A stretch of DNA of 64,000 nucleotides, taken from the NCBI RefSeq assembly GCF_030733265.1, contig NZ_JASHJI010000010.1:1-64000 (forward strand), given 5' to 3'. The notes below the pieces were generated by a model, which was not told the origin of the DNA, did not search any database, and saw only the letters and a list, made by a program, of their open reading frames with translations. The stretch is from Roseibium sp. MMSF_3412 (lineage in GTDB: Bacteria; Pseudomonadota; Alphaproteobacteria; Rhizobiales; Stappiaceae). Below are positions 34,768-45,297 of this stretch, piece by piece; position 1 is the first letter of the stretch; the number at the start of each line of letters is the position of its first letter. The position numbers and the translations under genes are program-made.

Positions 34768-34988
34768 TTTGACTGACCTCTGATCGCTTTGAAGCTACAA
34801 TTCGTCAAGCTGAAGTTTCACAGAAGCCTGTTGATGGGACCATCACCTGCTCCGACATGTCGGAGTTGAGGCAGAGACCGTCGCTCTGAGACTGCCCGGA
34901 AAAACAAGGCTCTCCGCTAAAGTCGGTCCATCCTGCGATTTTGTCGGCCTCGCCCCAAGGCGGCGCGGGACCTGCAAATCGAGAAACA

Positions 34989-36581
34989 ATGGCGGATCGG
35001 ATGACAGAGGACCTTGGCACGCTTGCCGTGAATGAAACAGCCCCCCTTAGGCGCGGTCGCCGTCGCAGAGGTGGCGGTGAAAAGGCGGGACCGGATCTCT
35101 TCCCTCAGAAGCCCTTCAGGCAGCCCCGGCATATTTTCAAACCCATCGAAGCAATCTCCGCTGACGAACTCGAATCGATCCACGATGCCTCCATGCGGGT
35201 TCTGGAGGAAATCGGTATGGACTTCCTCCACGAGGAGGCGAAGGAAATGCTCAAGGCGGCCGGTGCCGACGTGAAGCCGGGCGAGGACCGCGTTCGCATG
35301 GATCGCGCCATGGTCGAGGAACTCGTCGCCAAAGCGCCAGCCGAATTCACCCTGCGTGCCCGCAATCGGAACCACGACCTGCAGATCGGTGGCGATGCCA
35401 TTGTGTTCTCCTGCGTCGCCAGCACGCCCAATGTCGTTGACCGCGACGGCGGCCGCAGGCCCGGCAACCGGGAGGACTTCCAGAAGCTCCTGAAGCTCGG
35501 CCAGTTCTTCAACATCATTCACGCACCGCTCGGCTATCCCGTCGAACCCGTGGATCTTCACGCCTCGATCCGGCATTTGGACTGCATCGCCGACGCAATC
35601 CGCCTGACCGACAAGGCGCTGCATCTTTATTCCCTCGGCAAGGAACGCAATCACGACGGCATCGAACTTGCCCGGATCGCGAACGGTCTCACGCCCGAAC
35701 AACTGATCGACACCCCGTGCACACTGACGGTGATCAACACGTCTTCCCCTTTGCGTCTCGATACACCCATGCTTCAGGGTATCATCGAGATGGCCAGGGC
35801 TGGTCAGGTGTCCGTCGTCACGCCGTTCACGCTCGCCGGCGCGATGGCACCCGTTACCGTTGCGGGGGCACTGACCCTGCAAAATGCGGAAGCACTGGCG
35901 GGCATTGCCTTCGCGCAGCTCGTGCGACCGGGCGCACCCGTTGTTTATGGCGGCTTCACCTCGAATGTCGACATGAAGTCCGGCGCGCCGGCTTTCGGCA
36001 CCCCGGAATACATGAAAGCCGCCCTTGTCAGCGGGCAATTGGCGCGACGTTACAAGCTGCCGTTCCGGTCTTCCGGCGTCTGCGCCGCCAACACGGTCGA
36101 TTATCAGGCCGCTCTTGAAACGACGCTGTCGGAATGGGGTGCGATCAACGGCGGCGGCAATCTGATCAAGCATGCCGCCGGCTGGCTTGAAGGCGGTCTC
36201 AGCGCCGGCTTCGAGAAGTTCATTGCCGATATCGACCTTCTGCAGAAGATCGCAGAGTACCTGACCCCTCTGGATGTCTCCGAAGCATCGCTTGCCGTCG
36301 ATGCGATCAAGGACGTGGGACCGGCAGGGCATTTCTTCGGAACCGAGCACACGCAGGCCCGCTACAAGGACGCGTTCTACCCGCCGATCGTGTCCGACTG
36401 GCGCAATTACGAAACATGGGCAGAGGCGGGCAGCCCGATCGCCTATGACAAGGCCAACATGCTCTACAAGAAAGCCCTTGAAGCTTATGAGCAGCCTGCC
36501 CTCGATCCTGCGATCGACGAGGAAATCACGGCCTTTGTCGACCGGCGAAAGGCCGAAGGCGGCGTTCCCACCGACTTTTAG
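34989..36581 (+). CDS. trimethylamine/betaine methyltransferase family protein (MttB-like, non-pyrrolysine)
   Basis: This 530-residue TIM-barrel protein of the MttB superfamily shows PRHIFKPIEAIS, SMRVLEEIGMDFL and GGNLIKHAAGWLEGGL, all family-like. There is no in-frame amber codon, so it lacks pyrrolysine and resembles the glycine-betaine type (MtgB) and many uncharacterised alphaproteobacterial homologues. Known members pass a methyl group from a quaternary amine to a corrinoid protein, but no corrinoid protein gene is adjacent. An Arg-rich stretch (PLRRGRRRRGGG) follows the start. ATG 34989 is chosen; 35001 is possible. It precedes a dimethylglycine-dehydrogenase-like gene by 53 bases. Confidence 0.85.
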   Translation: MADRMTEDLGTLAVNETAPLRRGRRRRGGGEKAGPDLFPQKPFRQPRHIFKPIEAISADELESIHDASMRVLEEIGMDFLHEEAKEMLKAAGADVKPGEDRVRMDRAMVEELVAKAPAEFTLRARNRNHDLQIGGDAIVFSCVASTPNVVDRDGGRRPGNREDFQKLLKLGQFFNIIHAPLGYPVEPVDLHASIRHLDCIADAIRLTDKALHLYSLGKERNHDGIELARIANGLTPEQLIDTPCTLTVINTSSPLRLDTPMLQGIIEMARAGQVSVVTPFTLAGAMAPVTVAGALTLQNAEALAGIAFAQLVRPGAPVVYGGFTSNVDMKSGAPAFGTPEYMKAALVSGQLARRYKLPFRSSGVCAANTVDYQAALETTLSEWGAINGGGNLIKHAAGWLEGGLSAGFEKFIADIDLLQKIAEYLTPLDVSEASLAVDAIKDVGPAGHFFGTEHTQARYKDAFYPPIVSDWRNYETWAEAGSPIAYDKANMLYKKALEAYEQPALDPAIDEEITAFVDRRKAEGGVPTDF

Positions 36582-36634: not shown

Positions 36635-39070
36635 ATGAAAACTCACACTCAGGTCGTTGTCATTGGTGGCGGCGTTGTCGGCTGCAGTGTTCTTTATCAC
36701 CTCACCAAGCTGGGCTGGAAAGACGTGGTGCTGGTCGAGCGCGACGAGCTCACCTCCGGATCTTCCTGGCACGCGGCCGGAGGATTTCACACGCTGAACG
36801 GCGACCCCAACGTTGCGCAGCTGCAAAGCTACACGGTCGATCTCTACAAGGAGCTGGAAGAGATTTCCGGTCAGTCCTGCAGCCTGCATCTGACCGGCGG
36901 CGTGATGCTCGCGGACACGCCCGAGCGCATGGACTTTCTGCGCCTTGCCCAGGCCAAGGGCCGCTATCTGGGCATGGAACTGGAACTGATTTCCGTTCTG
37001 GAAGCCAAGGCCATGTTCCCGATGCTCGACGAAAAACACTTCATCGGCGCGCTCTGGGATCCGATCGAGGGTCATCTGGATCCATCAGGCACGACCCACG
37101 CCTACGCCAAGGCCGCACGCGTGAATGGCGCGACGATCTACCGGCACACCAAGGTGGAAGAACTGGTGCAGACGCCGGACGGCACCTGGGATGTCGTCAC
37201 GGGCAAGGGCACGATCCGGGCGGATCATGTCGTCAATGCCGGCGGCCTGTGGGCCCGCGAATGCGGCCGCATGGTCGGCCTTGAACTGCCGATCCTCGCC
37301 ATGGAACACATGTACCTGCTGACCGACGAAATGCCGGAAGTGGTTGCCCACAACGAAGCAACCGGCAAGGAACTGATCGGCATCCTGGACTTCGGCGGCG
37401 AGATCTATACGCGCCAGGAAGGCAAGGGCATGCTGCTGGGCACCTACGAGCAGAACTGCCGCCCGTGGAGCCCGCGCGAGACCCCGTGGGATTTCGGCCA
37501 CGAACTGCTTGCCCCGGACCTTGACCGCATCGCACCGGAGCTTGAAGTCGGCTTTGAACACTTCCCGGCGCTGCAGACGGCGGGAATCAAGCAGATCATC
37601 AACGGCCCCTTCACCTTCGCACCCGACGGCAATCCGCTTGTCGGGCCGGTCCGGGGCCTTCAGAACTATTGGGTCGCCTGCGGTGTGATGGCCGGGTTCA
37701 GCCAGGGCGGCGGTGTCGGACTGACGCTGGCAAACTGGATGATAAACGGTGATCCGGGATACGACATCTGGGGCATGGATGTCGCGCGCTACGGCGACTG
37801 GGCAACGCTCTCCTATACCAATGCCAAGGTGCAGGAAAACTATCGCCGCCGGTTCCGCATCCGTTTCCCGAACGAGGAACTTCCGGCCGGCCGGCCGCAT
37901 CAGACGACCCCGCTCTTCGATCGCATGCTGGCGCAGGGCGCTGTCATGGGCGACAGCTGGGCGCTCGAAACACCGCTATGGTTCGCACCGGAGGGCGTGG
38001 AGGCTCGAGACATTTTCTCCTTCCACCGGTCGAACGATTTCGAACATGTCGGGGCGGAATGCCGGGCGGTGCGCGAAAGTGTCGGCATCACCGAAATCGC
38101 GAATTTCGCGAAATACGAGATCAGCGGTCCGGGTGCGGAAGACTACCTGTCCTACCTGATGACCAACACCATGCCGAAGGTCGGCCGGATCGTGCTGACG
38201 CCGATGCTCAACGAGAACGGCAAGCTGATTGGCGACTTCACCATCGCGCGCGCCTCCGATGAAACATTCTACATGTTCGGGTCCTCGCAGGCCGAGGTCT
38301 ATCACATGCGCTGGTTCGAGAAACACCTGCCGCAGGATGGCTCGGTGACGCTCAGGGCGATCAATCTTGGCTGGGTGGGCCTTTCCATTGCCGGTCCGAA
38401 CGCACGCAAGGTCCTTGAAAAAGTAACCGGCGAAGACGTCTCGGGCGCAGCCTTCCGCTTCATGGATTTCCGCGAAATGGACGTCGCCAATGCGCCGTGC
38501 AAGGTCAACCGGATTACCTATACCGGCGACCTCGGTTACGAGATCTGGATGACGCCGGAATATGAACGCCAGGTCTATGAGGCCCTGATGGCGGCCGGGG
38601 CCGAATTCGGCATCCGGAACTTCGGCATGCGCGCGCTTCTGTCCCTGCGGCTTGAAAAGAACTTCGGCACCTGGTTCCGCGAGTTCCGCCCGATCTACGG
38701 ACCTTATGAGGCCGATCTCGGGCGTTTCGTGAAACTGTCGAAAAACCGCTTCATCGGTCAGGAAGCCGCCCGCACCGAATTCGAGGAAGGTCCGCAAAAG
38801 CGCCGGGTCAGCTTCGAAGTCGCCGCGTCCGATGCGGATGTCATGGGCGACGAACCGGTCTGGCACAACGGCGAGGTCATCGGCTGGATAACTTCCGGCG
38901 GTTATGCGCACTGGGTCGGGAAATCCCTGGCCCAGGGATACATCCCCGCCGGGCTTGCCGAAAAAACCGGCGAAGGTGCGTTCGAAGTCGAAATCCTGGG
39001 TGAAATGTGCAAGGCAACCATCCTTCCCGATCCTCCGTTCGATCCGAAGGCGGAGCGCATGCGCATGTAA
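36635..39070 (+). CDS. dimethylglycine/sarcosine dehydrogenase-type flavoprotein with GcvT domain
   Basis: This 811-residue enzyme has an N-terminal FAD domain (GGGVVG at residues 11-16) and a C-terminal aminomethyltransferase/GcvT folate-binding domain from about residue 430 (ANFAKYEISGPGAEDYL to the end). H46 in SGSSWHAAGG aligns with the His that carries covalent FAD in rat DMGDH as remembered. Such enzymes remove N-methyl groups oxidatively and pass one-carbon units to tetrahydrofolate. RBS GGAG precedes the ATG. It sits between the MttB-like and DddP-like genes, probably one operon. Confidence 0.88.
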   Translation: MKTHTQVVVIGGGVVGCSVLYHLTKLGWKDVVLVERDELTSGSSWHAAGGFHTLNGDPNVAQLQSYTVDLYKELEEISGQSCSLHLTGGVMLADTPERMDFLRLAQAKGRYLGMELELISVLEAKAMFPMLDEKHFIGALWDPIEGHLDPSGTTHAYAKAARVNGATIYRHTKVEELVQTPDGTWDVVTGKGTIRADHVVNAGGLWARECGRMVGLELPILAMEHMYLLTDEMPEVVAHNEATGKELIGILDFGGEIYTRQEGKGMLLGTYEQNCRPWSPRETPWDFGHELLAPDLDRIAPELEVGFEHFPALQTAGIKQIINGPFTFAPDGNPLVGPVRGLQNYWVACGVMAGFSQGGGVGLTLANWMINGDPGYDIWGMDVARYGDWATLSYTNAKVQENYRRRFRIRFPNEELPAGRPHQTTPLFDRMLAQGAVMGDSWALETPLWFAPEGVEARDIFSFHRSNDFEHVGAECRAVRESVGITEIANFAKYEISGPGAEDYLSYLMTNTMPKVGRIVLTPMLNENGKLIGDFTIARASDETFYMFGSSQAEVYHMRWFEKHLPQDGSVTLRAINLGWVGLSIAGPNARKVLEKVTGEDVSGAAFRFMDFREMDVANAPCKVNRITYTGDLGYEIWMTPEYERQVYEALMAAGAEFGIRNFGMRALLSLRLEKNFGTWFREFRPIYGPYEADLGRFVKLSKNRFIGQEAARTEFEEGPQKRRVSFEVAASDADVMGDEPVWHNGEVIGWITSGGYAHWVGKSLAQGYIPAGLAEKTGEGAFEVEILGEMCKATILPDPPFDPKAERMRM

Positions 39071-39113
39071 CTCACGGCAACGGCCAGCAACACAGGGAGG
39101 AGGTGTCAGCGCC

Positions 39114-40490
39114 ATGAACACGGAACATTTTGGCCGCCACAGGCGGAAGATCATGCCGGCCGAGCTGCCGCTTCACCCTGGTGACGCTGCAGGCTACGAG
39201 GCCCTTGCCGCCTATGCCAACGAGAAGGCAACCGCACTCAACCGGCACGTCCTGGGCTATGGCGACCTCGCGGAGGCCGAATGGGCAACGCTTGGCCTTG
39301 AGGCACCTGACCTTGACGCCATGCGCGCATACCGGCTCGGGCGCATCCGGCAGCAACTGGAAAAATACGATCTCAGCGCCGCAATTCTCTGCGACCCGCT
39401 GAACGTCCGCTACGCGACAGATGCGACCAACATGCAGGTCTGGTCGACACACAACGCCGTCCGCTACACGTTTGTTGCCCTCGACGGACCCGTCGTTGCG
39501 TTCGATTTCCACCACTGCGAACACCTGTCCGGGCACAACCTTTTGGTTGACGAGGTCCGTCACGGTATTCCCTGGTTCTACTTCGAAGCCGGTCCCCGCT
39601 CTGCAGAGCTGGCGCTGAAATGGGCGGACGAACTCGCGGACCTGGTGAAGACCTATGGCGGTGGCAACCATCGCATCGCCCTGGACAAGGCCCGCCGTGA
39701 AGGCGTTGCCGCGTTAGAGGCGCATGGCCTGGAATTCCATGACGGTGAAGAGGTCATGGAACTGGCTCGTTCGATCAAGAGCGGCGACGAAATCAAGGCG
39801 ATGCGCCGTTCGATTGCCTCCTGCGAAGCCGCCATGCGGGAAATGGAAGACGCGCTTGTCCCCGGCATGACGGAATGGGATCTGTGGGCGCTGCTTCACG
39901 CGGGCAATATCAGGAGAGGCGGCGAATGGATCGAAACCCAGCTTCTGGCCTCCGGCCCGCGCACGAACCCCTGGTTCCAGGAAGCATCGTCGCGTGTGAT
40001 TGAGGACGGTGATCTCGTCGCATTCGATACGGATCTCGTTGGGCCCTATGGCATGTGTTGCGATATTTCCAGAACGTGGCTTTGCGGCGACGGGACCCCA
40101 ACCAACGAACAGCGGTGTCTTTACCAGATGGCCTATGACCAGATCGAGGCCAATATCGGCATGCTCGCGCCCGGCCGCACCTTCCGGGAACTTTCTCATG
40201 AAGCCGTAAGCCTCCAGGACGATTGCCTAGCAAACCGGTATTCCGTGCTCTTTCACGGTGTCGGCCTGTGCGATGAATACCCGGCGGTGCCCTACCCGTC
40301 AGACTGGGAGAGCGGAGGCTATGACGGCAGCCTTGAGCCCGGAATGGTAGTCTGTGTTGAGAGTTATGTCGGCCGGCACGGCGGCCATGAGGGCGTGAAG
40401 CTCGAAGAACAGCTCCTGATCACCGACACGGGATACGAGCGTCTCAGCACCTATCCCTATGACGAGCGATTGCTGGGCCGTTCAGCGTAA
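39114..40490 (+). CDS. dddP: M24 (creatinase-fold) protein, DddP-like DMSP lyase candidate
   Basis: This 458-residue protein has a creatinase/Xaa-Pro peptidase fold. It shares long runs with DddP as remembered: DPLNVRYATDATNMQ, RGGEWIETQLLASGPRTNPW, FDTDLVGPYGM and HGVGLCDEYP. Metal ligands D305, D307, D317, H381, E416 and E431, and the residues Y376 and D387, match D295, D297, D307, H371, E406, E421, Y366 and D377 of Roseobacter DddP with a constant offset of ten; W110 corresponds to W95. DddP splits DMSP to DMS and acrylate. Its operon partners act on methylated amines, so a related substrate is possible. GGAGGAGG precedes ATG 39114. Confidence 0.65.
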   Translation: MNTEHFGRHRRKIMPAELPLHPGDAAGYEALAAYANEKATALNRHVLGYGDLAEAEWATLGLEAPDLDAMRAYRLGRIRQQLEKYDLSAAILCDPLNVRYATDATNMQVWSTHNAVRYTFVALDGPVVAFDFHHCEHLSGHNLLVDEVRHGIPWFYFEAGPRSAELALKWADELADLVKTYGGGNHRIALDKARREGVAALEAHGLEFHDGEEVMELARSIKSGDEIKAMRRSIASCEAAMREMEDALVPGMTEWDLWALLHAGNIRRGGEWIETQLLASGPRTNPWFQEASSRVIEDGDLVAFDTDLVGPYGMCCDISRTWLCGDGTPTNEQRCLYQMAYDQIEANIGMLAPGRTFRELSHEAVSLQDDCLANRYSVLFHGVGLCDEYPAVPYPSDWESGGYDGSLEPGMVVCVESYVGRHGGHEGVKLEEQLLITDTGYERLSTYPYDERLLGRSA

Positions 40491-43555: not shown

Positions 43556-44383
43556 TCAGGCCAGCTCGGGATAACCCTGCTCGGCCGCACGTCGTTCCAT
43601 TTCCAGGATCGGCGCATAGTCTGCGTCCGATATGGGCGAATATCCGCAGATCAGGAGGCGTGAGCGATCCTCGGCAAGCGTGACATCCTCGAAGACGGAT
43701 TGCACGGCCCCAGCAATGGTTTCGGCTTCGGCTTCCGAAAAACTGAGCGATGATACAAGCGGGAGTCCGGGCACGGATGCAGTGCGTCCGATCGAACGAA
43801 GTCTATCCGTGAGAGCCGGCAATTCCTGGCAGGCGAGCGACCAGCACACCGCATCGACACTCGCGATATCCGCAACACCTTCCGCCACGGCGCGAAGGGA
43901 GGCCAGATGACCGCCGCTTTCGCGTACGCTTGAAAAGAACGGTGCACCGCTGGCGACCTTGGCAACTTCGAAACGGAAGGCATTCATGCCGGACTGGCTG
44001 TCAGGCCCGTTGTAGACCGCCCGGCGACCGCGCAAATCGGCAAGTTCCCGATGGCTGCTGTCTCTCGCCACGACCAGATGCGAACAATATCGCCCGCCTT
44101 CGCAGCCTTCGGCGGCATAGTGCGGAACACCGACAGGCCGGACCCGACCTTTGAGCGCGTGCGTCAACGGATAGCCGCAGGTCTGGCTCAGGAGCAGGCC
44201 GGGCTGTCGCCAGTTGACTTCCAGACCCCGGTCCTCCGGCCACGGAACGCAGTCCCTGGGTCTAAGTCCAAGCGCGTCTAGGAGAGCATCCTGCAACGCG
44301 TTTTCCAGACGCTCTGTCGCGGCCCGGACCTCGGGCCAGTCATACATGGGCAGCCGGACAGGATGATAGGTCCGGTGGCTCAA
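43556..44383 (-). CDS. PhnD-like phosphonate-binding-fold protein without signal peptide
   Basis: This 275-residue protein has a PBP type-2 fold like PhnD/phosphite-binding proteins: LLLSQTCGYPLTH, LRGRRAVYNGPDSQSGMNAFR, SGGHLASLRAVAEGVADIASVDAVCW. It has no signal peptide or lipobox, so it is predicted to be cytosolic. There is no permease or ATPase next to it. It overlaps the end of the desaturase gene by four bases and is translated with it, so it may be a sensor or carrier linked to lipid work. The ligand is unknown. Confidence 0.8.
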   Translation of the reverse strand: MSHRTYHPVRLPMYDWPEVRAATERLENALQDALLDALGLRPRDCVPWPEDRGLEVNWRQPGLLLSQTCGYPLTHALKGRVRPVGVPHYAAEGCEGGRYCSHLVVARDSSHRELADLRGRRAVYNGPDSQSGMNAFRFEVAKVASGAPFFSSVRESGGHLASLRAVAEGVADIASVDAVCWSLACQELPALTDRLRSIGRTASVPGLPLVSSLSFSEAEAETIAGAVQSVFEDVTLAEDRSRLLICGYSPISDADYAPILEMERRAAEQGYPELA

Positions 44384-45297
44384 ACCCCCGCCTCATCCGA
44401 TTGTCGGCGTCTCAGCGGATGCGCCACCGGTTCCTTGACCTTGAAAAGGAATGTTGCGGCAAGTTGCAGATAGCTCCTGAACACATAACCCTCGTTGCGT
44501 CGCTGCCATGTCAGTTTGTTGGCGCGGTACATCGCCGGCAGATCATACCACGGAGCTCGAGGATGGGCATGATGAACAACATGCAGGTTGTTGTTCAGGA
44601 AGAGAAGAGAGAAGAGCGGGCAGAACTCCACGATGATCGAACGCGCTTCCGCGGTGTCATGGGCGCGGTGTTCGGCATAGGTGCGCAGCATAAGAAGGCT
44701 CATCGCGGGATAGGAGATGCAGCATATATAGAGCCATATCGGCATCTTGCCGACGAGCGTGATGAACAGCACGACCGGAACAGCGCCGATAAAGTGGTGC
44801 AGCCAGGCCCGCAGAACGACCATGTCGCCGGCGCGGATCATGCGCAGCTCGGACCCGAGAAAACCGATGACCGACACAAGCGGACCGATCAGCAAACGGC
44901 CGAGCAGGGTGTTGTTGACTGTCAGAACGGCCTGAATGAGCACGGGCAGCTTCTGCCAGTCCGACCAGGCCATGTAAAAGGTTTCGGGATCATCGTAAGG
45001 ATCGGTGAGCCGGTCATTGTTGTGGTGACGCAAGTGCAACGACTTGAAGCGGCGGTAGGGAATGAAGAGACCGAGCGAACAATAAACCAGCGCCTCGTTC
45101 ACTGCCGGATTGCGTGTCGGATGACCGTGCAGCACTTCATGCTGCAGGGACGACTGCAAGGTAACCACGAAAACTGCAAGGGGGCAGACGATCCATCCGC
45201 CCAGCGCCGGGTAGTTCCCGATCAGAAGCATCCATGCCGCTGCCGCGGCCAGAATCAAGGCCAGGGTCGGCCATTCGCGAAAGCTTGCACGCGTCAC
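44380..45297 (-). CDS. membrane fatty acid desaturase
   Basis: This 305-residue di-iron membrane enzyme has three histidine boxes: H53/H57 in LQHEVLHGHP, H88-H91-H92 in LHLRHHNND and HVVHHAHPRAPW near residue 255. Several membrane helices separate them. It inserts a double bond in an acyl or isoprenoid chain. It is the first gene of a coupled pair with the PhnD-like protein and has a palindrome about 105 bases upstream. Confidence 0.88.
   Translation of the reverse strand: MTRASFREWPTLALILAAAAAWMLLIGNYPALGGWIVCPLAVFVVTLQSSLQHEVLHGHPTRNPAVNEALVYCSLGLFIPYRRFKSLHLRHHNNDRLTDPYDDPETFYMAWSDWQKLPVLIQAVLTVNNTLLGRLLIGPLVSVIGFLGSELRMIRAGDMVVLRAWLHHFIGAVPVVLFITLVGKMPIWLYICCISYPAMSLLMLRTYAEHRAHDTAEARSIIVEFCPLFSLLFLNNNLHVVHHAHPRAPWYDLPAMYRANKLTWQRRNEGYVFRSYLQLAATFLFKVKEPVAHPLRRRQSDEAGV

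Follow-up and report, generated by a model that had tools for sequence, protein, structure and literature searches.

A DddP-like M24 protein in a betaine-demethylation operon of Roseibium belongs to a subfamily adjacent to the DMSP lyase DddP

Introduction

The closest described relatives of the protein analyzed here are the DddP DMSP lyases, represented by the solved structures of RlDddP (4rzy, 4s00 and 4s01) and RdDddP (4b28), for which residues of proton abstraction and onium binding have been proposed (PMC5395565, PMC4108388); the functions assigned below to one Trp, one Tyr and one Asp residue follow PMC5395565. An active fungal DddP has been described that is only 32% identical to RdDddP (PMC4108388). 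In one Tara Oceans analysis dddP accounted for ~65% of total ddd genes (PMC10686828), and surveys have accepted DddP homologues at E below 1e-70 (PMC5395565) or at 40% identity over 70% (PMC6309047). The reported Km values of DddP for DMSP are high (14 and 17 mM; PMC5395565, Table 2), which leaves natural substrates a matter of debate.

The second point of comparison is the MtgB/MtgC/MtgD system of glycine betaine demethylation in R. pomeroyi, which likewise has a PF06253 protein and a DMGDH-like gene in an operon, and two PF06253 proteins of this organism rise on glycine betaine (PMC12478193). The main text of that paper on MtgB/MtgC/MtgD contains no words beginning with "peptidase" or "desaturase". 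We analyzed a 64,000-nucleotide stretch of Roseibium sp. MMSF_3412 (contig NZ_JASHJI010000010.1, positions 1 to 64,000; hereafter the window) that carries a gene for a DddP-like M24 protein, designated P0001. Roseibium is a marine genus.

Results

The M24 gene is the third in a row of forward-strand genes, and the two upstream genes bear out the initial annotation, which had placed it downstream of genes of N-methyl metabolism. The first gene (34941..36581, +, start codon uncertain) encodes an MttB-superfamily corrinoid methyltransferase of the quaternary-amine type (PF06253, 656.6 bits) that scores below the TIGR02369 trimeth_pyl cut-off (299.3 vs. 525 bits) and has 4yyc, 2qne and the glycine betaine methyltransferase 9yce as PDB relatives. 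The second (36635..39070, +) encodes a DMGDH-like FAD oxidoreductase with GcvT folate domains (Pfam DAO, FAO_M, GCV_T and GCV_T_C), whose best PDB relatives are the dimethylglycine dehydrogenases 4p9s and 5l46 (E = 4.7e-181 and 4.9e-181). Its stop codon is separated by 43 nt from the ATG of the M24 gene, and within this gap lies GGGAGGAGG (39095..39103, +), a probable ribosome-binding site. The M24 ORF (39114..40490, +) is intact and encodes a "pita-bread" protein of 458 aa; the reading frame stays open upstream as far as 38904, and from residue 1 onward P0001 aligns with 11 Roseibium-group loci (L039-L049). As in the MtgB/MtgC/MtgD system there is a corrinoid protein, encoded elsewhere in the source genome: a free corrinoid protein (245-aa frame) adjoins DUF1638 on contig C7, not on the window's contig. 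The source genome (G000) holds six MttB-superfamily genes.

P0001 is a member of the M24 family (PF00557, 120.4 bits against a cut-off of 23) with the same fold as DddP and identities of 48.1% to RlDddP 4rzy (E = 5.8e-122) and 46.6% to 4b28; at 47%, its identity to RdDddP is above the 32% of the fungal DddP. DddP chains were the best fold match of its AlphaFold model (pLDDT 83.9, pTM 0.82), with TM 0.86-0.87 by query length and Z 49.8-50.2, and the next fold family was Xaa-Pro dipeptidase (Z 34.8). Creatinase and the ectoine hydrolase DoeA, which act in osmolyte catabolism, have the M24 fold in common with P0001 at only 16-19% identity, and P0001 scored far below the DoeA cut-offs (NF038259, 42.2 vs. 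575 bits; TIGR02993, 26.3 vs. 613 bits).

The numbering of Tyr366 and Asp377 in RlDddP was fixed by the PDB mutants 4s00 (Y366A) and 4s01 (D377N), in which the changed letters are visible in the alignments; for the Trp of the DddP onium pocket we assume the number Trp95. The eight RlDddP residues that had been placed at a constant offset of ten (D295, D297, D307, Y366, H371, D377, E406 and E421 in 4rzy) do align with D305, D307, D317, Y376, H381, D387, E416 and E431 of P0001, and the alignment with 4rzy likewise agrees with W110 as the counterpart of Trp95, so that P0001 keeps the residues proposed in DddP for proton abstraction and onium binding. The initial annotation had read this as retention of the full DMSP-lyase residue set, which is accurate as to the presence of all nine residues, not as to what they diagnose. 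All nine occur in 97 of the 109 rows of the alignment (roughly a dozen Roseibium near-copies are among the rows), and their carriers include Acinetobacter, Burkholderia and many Alphaproteobacteria; the nine residues therefore mark a wide DddP-like family rather than identify a DMSP lyase, and on the evidence of the alignment the set cannot tell DMSP from other onium substrates. Because of this family-wide occurrence we rejected the nine-residue signature as a test for DMSP lyases. The six metal ligands, including Asp297, were present in P0001 and were kept throughout the 105 rows of clades A to G except for one row (Gly at 406), almost every row of clades A to F retained D377, W95 and Y366, and the metal ligand D307 and base D387 of P0001 were kept in 23 of 23 rows of its own clade (clade A, below). 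The set is incomplete in a deeper clade, that of the G377 paralogues: all eight rows lack both D377, which is replaced by Gly, and W95, which is replaced by Phe or Tyr. This clade includes a paralogue from the source genome itself (L113:8740-10047; G000:C9, C9:81736), which is 42% identical and has Gly for Asp377 and Phe for Trp95. It is a guess that the 35% DddP homologue of Labrenzia LZB033 mentioned in PMC6309047 may be of the same kind.

In a bootstrapped tree of 55 of the 109 rows, thinned by hand, the clade with 4rzy and 4b28 comprised 27 rows with support of 100/100 and P0001 fell outside it, close by; a quick tree of 97 rows again had a DddP clade without P0001 (SH-aLRT 100), in a sampling that leaves out the fungal DddP and DddP1/DddP2 of O. 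doudoroffii. The DddP clade holds the solved DddPs, the Oceanisphaera plasmid dddP (626.5 bits) and other proteins over the cut-off of NF043017, the NCBIfam DddP equivalog. Against the same model, for which the cut-off is 600 bits, P0001 scored 498.2 bits and two relatives scored 513.4 and 475.1 bits. These relatives belong to clade A, which unites P0001 with Roseibium and genomes of two other families (99/93 in the 55-row tree); the Acinetobacter proteins grouped with clade A in the 55-row tree (93/89) and on the DddP side in the 97-row tree (SH-aLRT 80). Among 385 genomes of the class, 74 had a match at E <= 1e-90 and 12 had one over the DddP cut-off.

The same division was evident at five positions that mark the DddP clade, as defined in the present alignment rather than in published work. 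Across 38 DddP-clade rows these are Thr35 (37/38), Phe155 (38/38), Gly282 (38/38), His333 (35/38) and Ala, Val or Ile407 (30, 7 and 1 rows), the last directly following the metal ligand Glu406, whereas clade A has Gly, Trp, Ser, Gln and Ser, each in 23 of 23 rows; P0001 (G50, W170, S292, Q343, S417) has the DddP state at none of the five. Clades A, C, D, E, F and G together supply 67 rows, of which 66 have Ser or Thr at position 407, and the DddP letters Gly282, His333 and Phe155 appear in 3, 1 and 10 rows, respectively, the last in clades F and G; four of the 109 rows (L156, both L133 copies and L005) stand outside every clade list and these counts. Position 34 was dropped as a marker because its Pro is also found in clade C (7/7) and clade D (5/7). 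P0001 is thus a member of a subfamily adjacent to DddP and not of the DddP clade itself; it should not be filed as DddP, being a close relative that may work like DddP.

The operon that the initial annotation called unusual is nothing out of the ordinary for this subfamily. MttB, DMGDH and M24 genes, together with opposite-strand PhnD-like and FA-desaturase-type genes, are found repeatedly in Roseibium as well as in families f29 and f24, and a gene for MttB, DMGDH, BHMT, a corrinoid protein or DUF1638 was found within 8.5 kb at 12 of 13 clade-A loci, compared with 5 of 35 loci in the DddP clade (the 35 include L165, on 5 kb). The same count was 5/7 in clade D, 3/10 in clade F, 2/12 in clade E (8/12 with any quaternary-amine gene), 1/8 among the G377 paralogues (3/8 with any quaternary-amine gene) and 0/5 in clade C, where two loci, both from Acinetobacter, have Rieske and BCCT genes; quaternary-amine genes are thus represented among the loci of clades A, C, D, E and F alike. 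One Roseibium-type locus (L041, from R. album) stands for its near-copies in these counts, which are lower bounds where a contig is short or ends close to the gene (L134, L127, L129, L165 and others). Twenty control regions in 20 of the same genomes, chosen by hand at arbitrary coordinates rather than randomly drawn, had no MttB/DMGDH-system genes and one weak SBP5 match. Gene orders vary between clades (MttB-DMGDH-M24, MttB-M24-DMGDH, DMGDH-MttB-M24 and M24-MttB-DMGDH), and the label "MttB or DMGDH nearby", borne by 29 of 92 rows, requires at least 11 changes on the tree (of the 97 rows, L081, L034 and L092 on 4-5 kb contigs and two PDB rows were left out), a number that fits repeated assembly or repeated loss of the neighborhood. 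A neighbor of N-methyl metabolism also occurs with DddP proper: a DddP-clade protein scoring 867 bits against the cut-off of 600 (L116:4236-8044, G596:C46) is preceded by a DMGDH-like gene with a 4-bp overlap.

Within the window, the opposite-strand pair consists of a PhnD-like binding protein (43556..44383, -, PF12974), found within 8.5 kb of the M24 gene in 11 of 13 clade-A loci, and an FA-desaturase-type protein (44380..45297, -, PF00487), also found in 11 of 13. The FA-desaturase-type gene is present at further loci as well, several of them without an M24 gene. The two genes recur together (43556-45297 on the minus strand; L211-L224 and L226-L230), joined by an XRE regulator in many loci outside Roseibium and by BHMT and MttB in some.

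The M24 gene is not a constant partner of the methyltransferase. Among the best 77 places for window-type MttBs in 73 genomes, the window's included, an M24 gene lay within 10 kb of 16 and, among the matches listed, none lay within 10 kb of the other 61; the 11 lowest M24 rows were left out of this count and, by coordinates, none is <= 10 kb from the 77. Two loci of the same genus (L244 and L245) have MttB (81%) and DMGDH (90% and 89%) in place without M24: tblastn of P0001 against both loci gave nothing above 21 bits, and genome-wide there was no P0001 match or only a 41% paralogue. The absence from these loci and the presence at 16 of 77 MttBs indicate that the M24 enzyme is an addition to the pathway rather than one of its core steps. 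An MttB tree, drawn mostly from M24 loci and to that extent biased, placed the window's MttB in a 26-row clade (support 99), apart from four of the five MttBs beside corrinoid genes, in which respect it differs from the MtgB/MtgC/MtgD arrangement; its core substrate may accordingly differ from theirs. Since two PF06253 proteins of R. pomeroyi rise on glycine betaine (PMC12478193), however, MttB clade does not name the substrate. M24 or corrinoid neighbors divide the MttBs only in part, and a clean split was discarded: among the members of the 26-row clade are L212 and one copy from L215, for which no M24 was found, as well as L173, which has M24 and a corrinoid gene, whereas two M24 loci, L050 and L110, have MttBs that fall outside the clade. 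Nor was a strictly shared inheritance of MttB and M24 supported, as the f29 MttBs group with those of clade-D loci L101 and L162 and the f29 M24 proteins group with P0001.

Elsewhere in the source genome we found DmdA (642.6 bits vs. a cut-off of 410) and a match to the cupin DMSP lyases (PF16867, 125.7 vs. 27 bits), the nearest solved relative of which is the DMSP lyase 4b29 (E = 8.4e-7). DMSP use in this genome does not need P0001; as evidence against DMSP cleavage by P0001 this is weak, because one strain can hold two DMSP lyases, as R. nubinhibens does with both DddP and DddQ (PMC6309047).

Discussion

The initial annotation offered two readings, one making P0001 a DMSP lyase within an amine operon and the other making it a relative that uses a different onium substrate. 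The evidence leans to the second, since P0001 lies outside the DddP clade, scores below the DddP cut-off, carries the non-DddP letters G/W/S/Q/S for T35/F155/G282/H333/A407 and has recurrent betaine-demethylation neighbors. We tentatively propose, with confidence just short of even, that P0001, a relative of DddP in a quaternary-amine operon, has retained the lyase chemistry and applies it to an N-onium betaine; a nitrogen betaine, not DMSP, would then be its probable natural substrate. Under this proposal the MttB-DMGDH-M24 operon would serve the catabolism of a quaternary-amine osmolyte, in which the core of MttB, corrinoid protein and DMGDH would strip methyl groups and P0001 would widen the substrate range. 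By analogy with DddP chemistry, the binuclear metal would hold the substrate carboxylate, W110 and Y376 would hold the onium group, D387 would remove the alpha proton and the onium group would leave by beta-elimination; the substrate could be beta-alanine betaine or a related N-onium betaine, with DMSP cleavage as a side activity. A beta-elimination substrate would fit the residues of P0001, and no operon gene names one. In a literature search on cleavage of beta-alanine betaine, that term did not occur among the papers listed. Work on the subfamily of P0001 was likewise absent from the titles and abstract starts listed in the literature searches, in which several lists were cut short and most subscription journals were outside coverage.

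That P0001 is instead a working DMSP (or DMSOP) lyase in an onium-osmolyte operon, one locus serving both glycine-betaine-type and sulfonium osmolytes, we regard as somewhat less likely. The nine residues are kept, clade A is close to DddP, the genus is marine, the DddP-clade protein of L116 (867 bits) also follows a DMGDH-like gene, and the predicted model is matched best by DddP chains (Z 49.8-50.2 vs. 34.8 for the next family); a divergent fungal DddP, moreover, is active at 32% identity to RdDddP (PMC4108388). P0001 nevertheless stands outside the DddP clade without its marker residues and below the curated NF043017 cut-off, in a genome that already has DmdA and a cupin DMSP lyase match. 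A hydrolase like creatinase or ectoine hydrolase, which would supply MttB and DMGDH by releasing a betaine, dimethylglycine or sarcosine from amide or amidine conjugates, is improbable in our judgment. The fold of P0001 is common to osmolyte C-N hydrolases (creatinase 7yto and DoeA 6yo9, both Z 32.9) and SBP5 (Dpp-type) transporter genes lie beside MttB in several relatives, but every one of the 23 clade-A rows keeps the base D387 and D307, the additional metal ligand, and the histidines of prolidase 5cdl align with F288, E290 and D387 of P0001. Two conserved peptidase histidines bind substrate, and two such histidines have been lost from DddP as well, which leaves Val-Pro uncleaved (PMC5395565); the three 5cdl histidines are candidates to include these two, the choice among the three being our own reading. 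With the candidate substrate histidines replaced, Xaa-Pro peptidase was set aside as the main reading. It is very improbable that the M24 gene is a mere passenger that contributes nothing to the MttB-DMGDH pathway: although it is near only 16 of 77 window-type MttBs and absent from L244 and L245, the association with 12 of 13 clade-A loci in several gene orders, against 0 of 20 control regions, and the probable ribosome-binding site in the 43-nt gap behind DMGDH speak against this reading.

A broader and unlikely extension of the N-onium proposal is that the DddP-like family consists at its root of N-onium (betaine) lyases of quaternary-amine operons, with DddP, which is counted as the most common marine DMSP lyase gene, as a sulfonium-specialized branch marked by S407A/V, S282G, Q333H and W155F. 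If so, the homology thresholds in common use would class P0001-like proteins among the DMSP lyases though their natural substrate carries nitrogen; at E = 5.8e-122 and 48% identity to 4rzy, P0001 would probably pass both survey thresholds given above. Should N-betaines be the substrates of the neighboring groups, some of the DMSP-cleavage potential inferred so far would be nitrogen-osmolyte catabolism. The marker residues make the natural-substrate question testable by mutants.

Two further sets of loci bear other neighbors. On plasmid pMPC6-328K of Pseudomonas sp. MPC6 (L177:17360-38534), a DddP-like M24 gene (440.5 bits) lies with genes for a ring-hydroxylating dioxygenase, ALDH, EutQ and BCCT and adjoins a set of CoA-transferase, BCCT, iron ADH and methylmalonate-semialdehyde dehydrogenase genes. 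The latter set presumably resembles a dddD cluster; no NCBIfam match at E <= 1e-60 was found for the CoA transferase, and its identity as DddD is unproven. Near a few loci (L096:2050-4198, L252:10412-12378, L109 and L230) lie genes with DUF3419 and methyltransferase domains that are like BtaA (DUF3419) and BtaB of betaine-lipid synthesis, and betaine-lipid headgroups may be noted as no more than a lead to M24 substrates.
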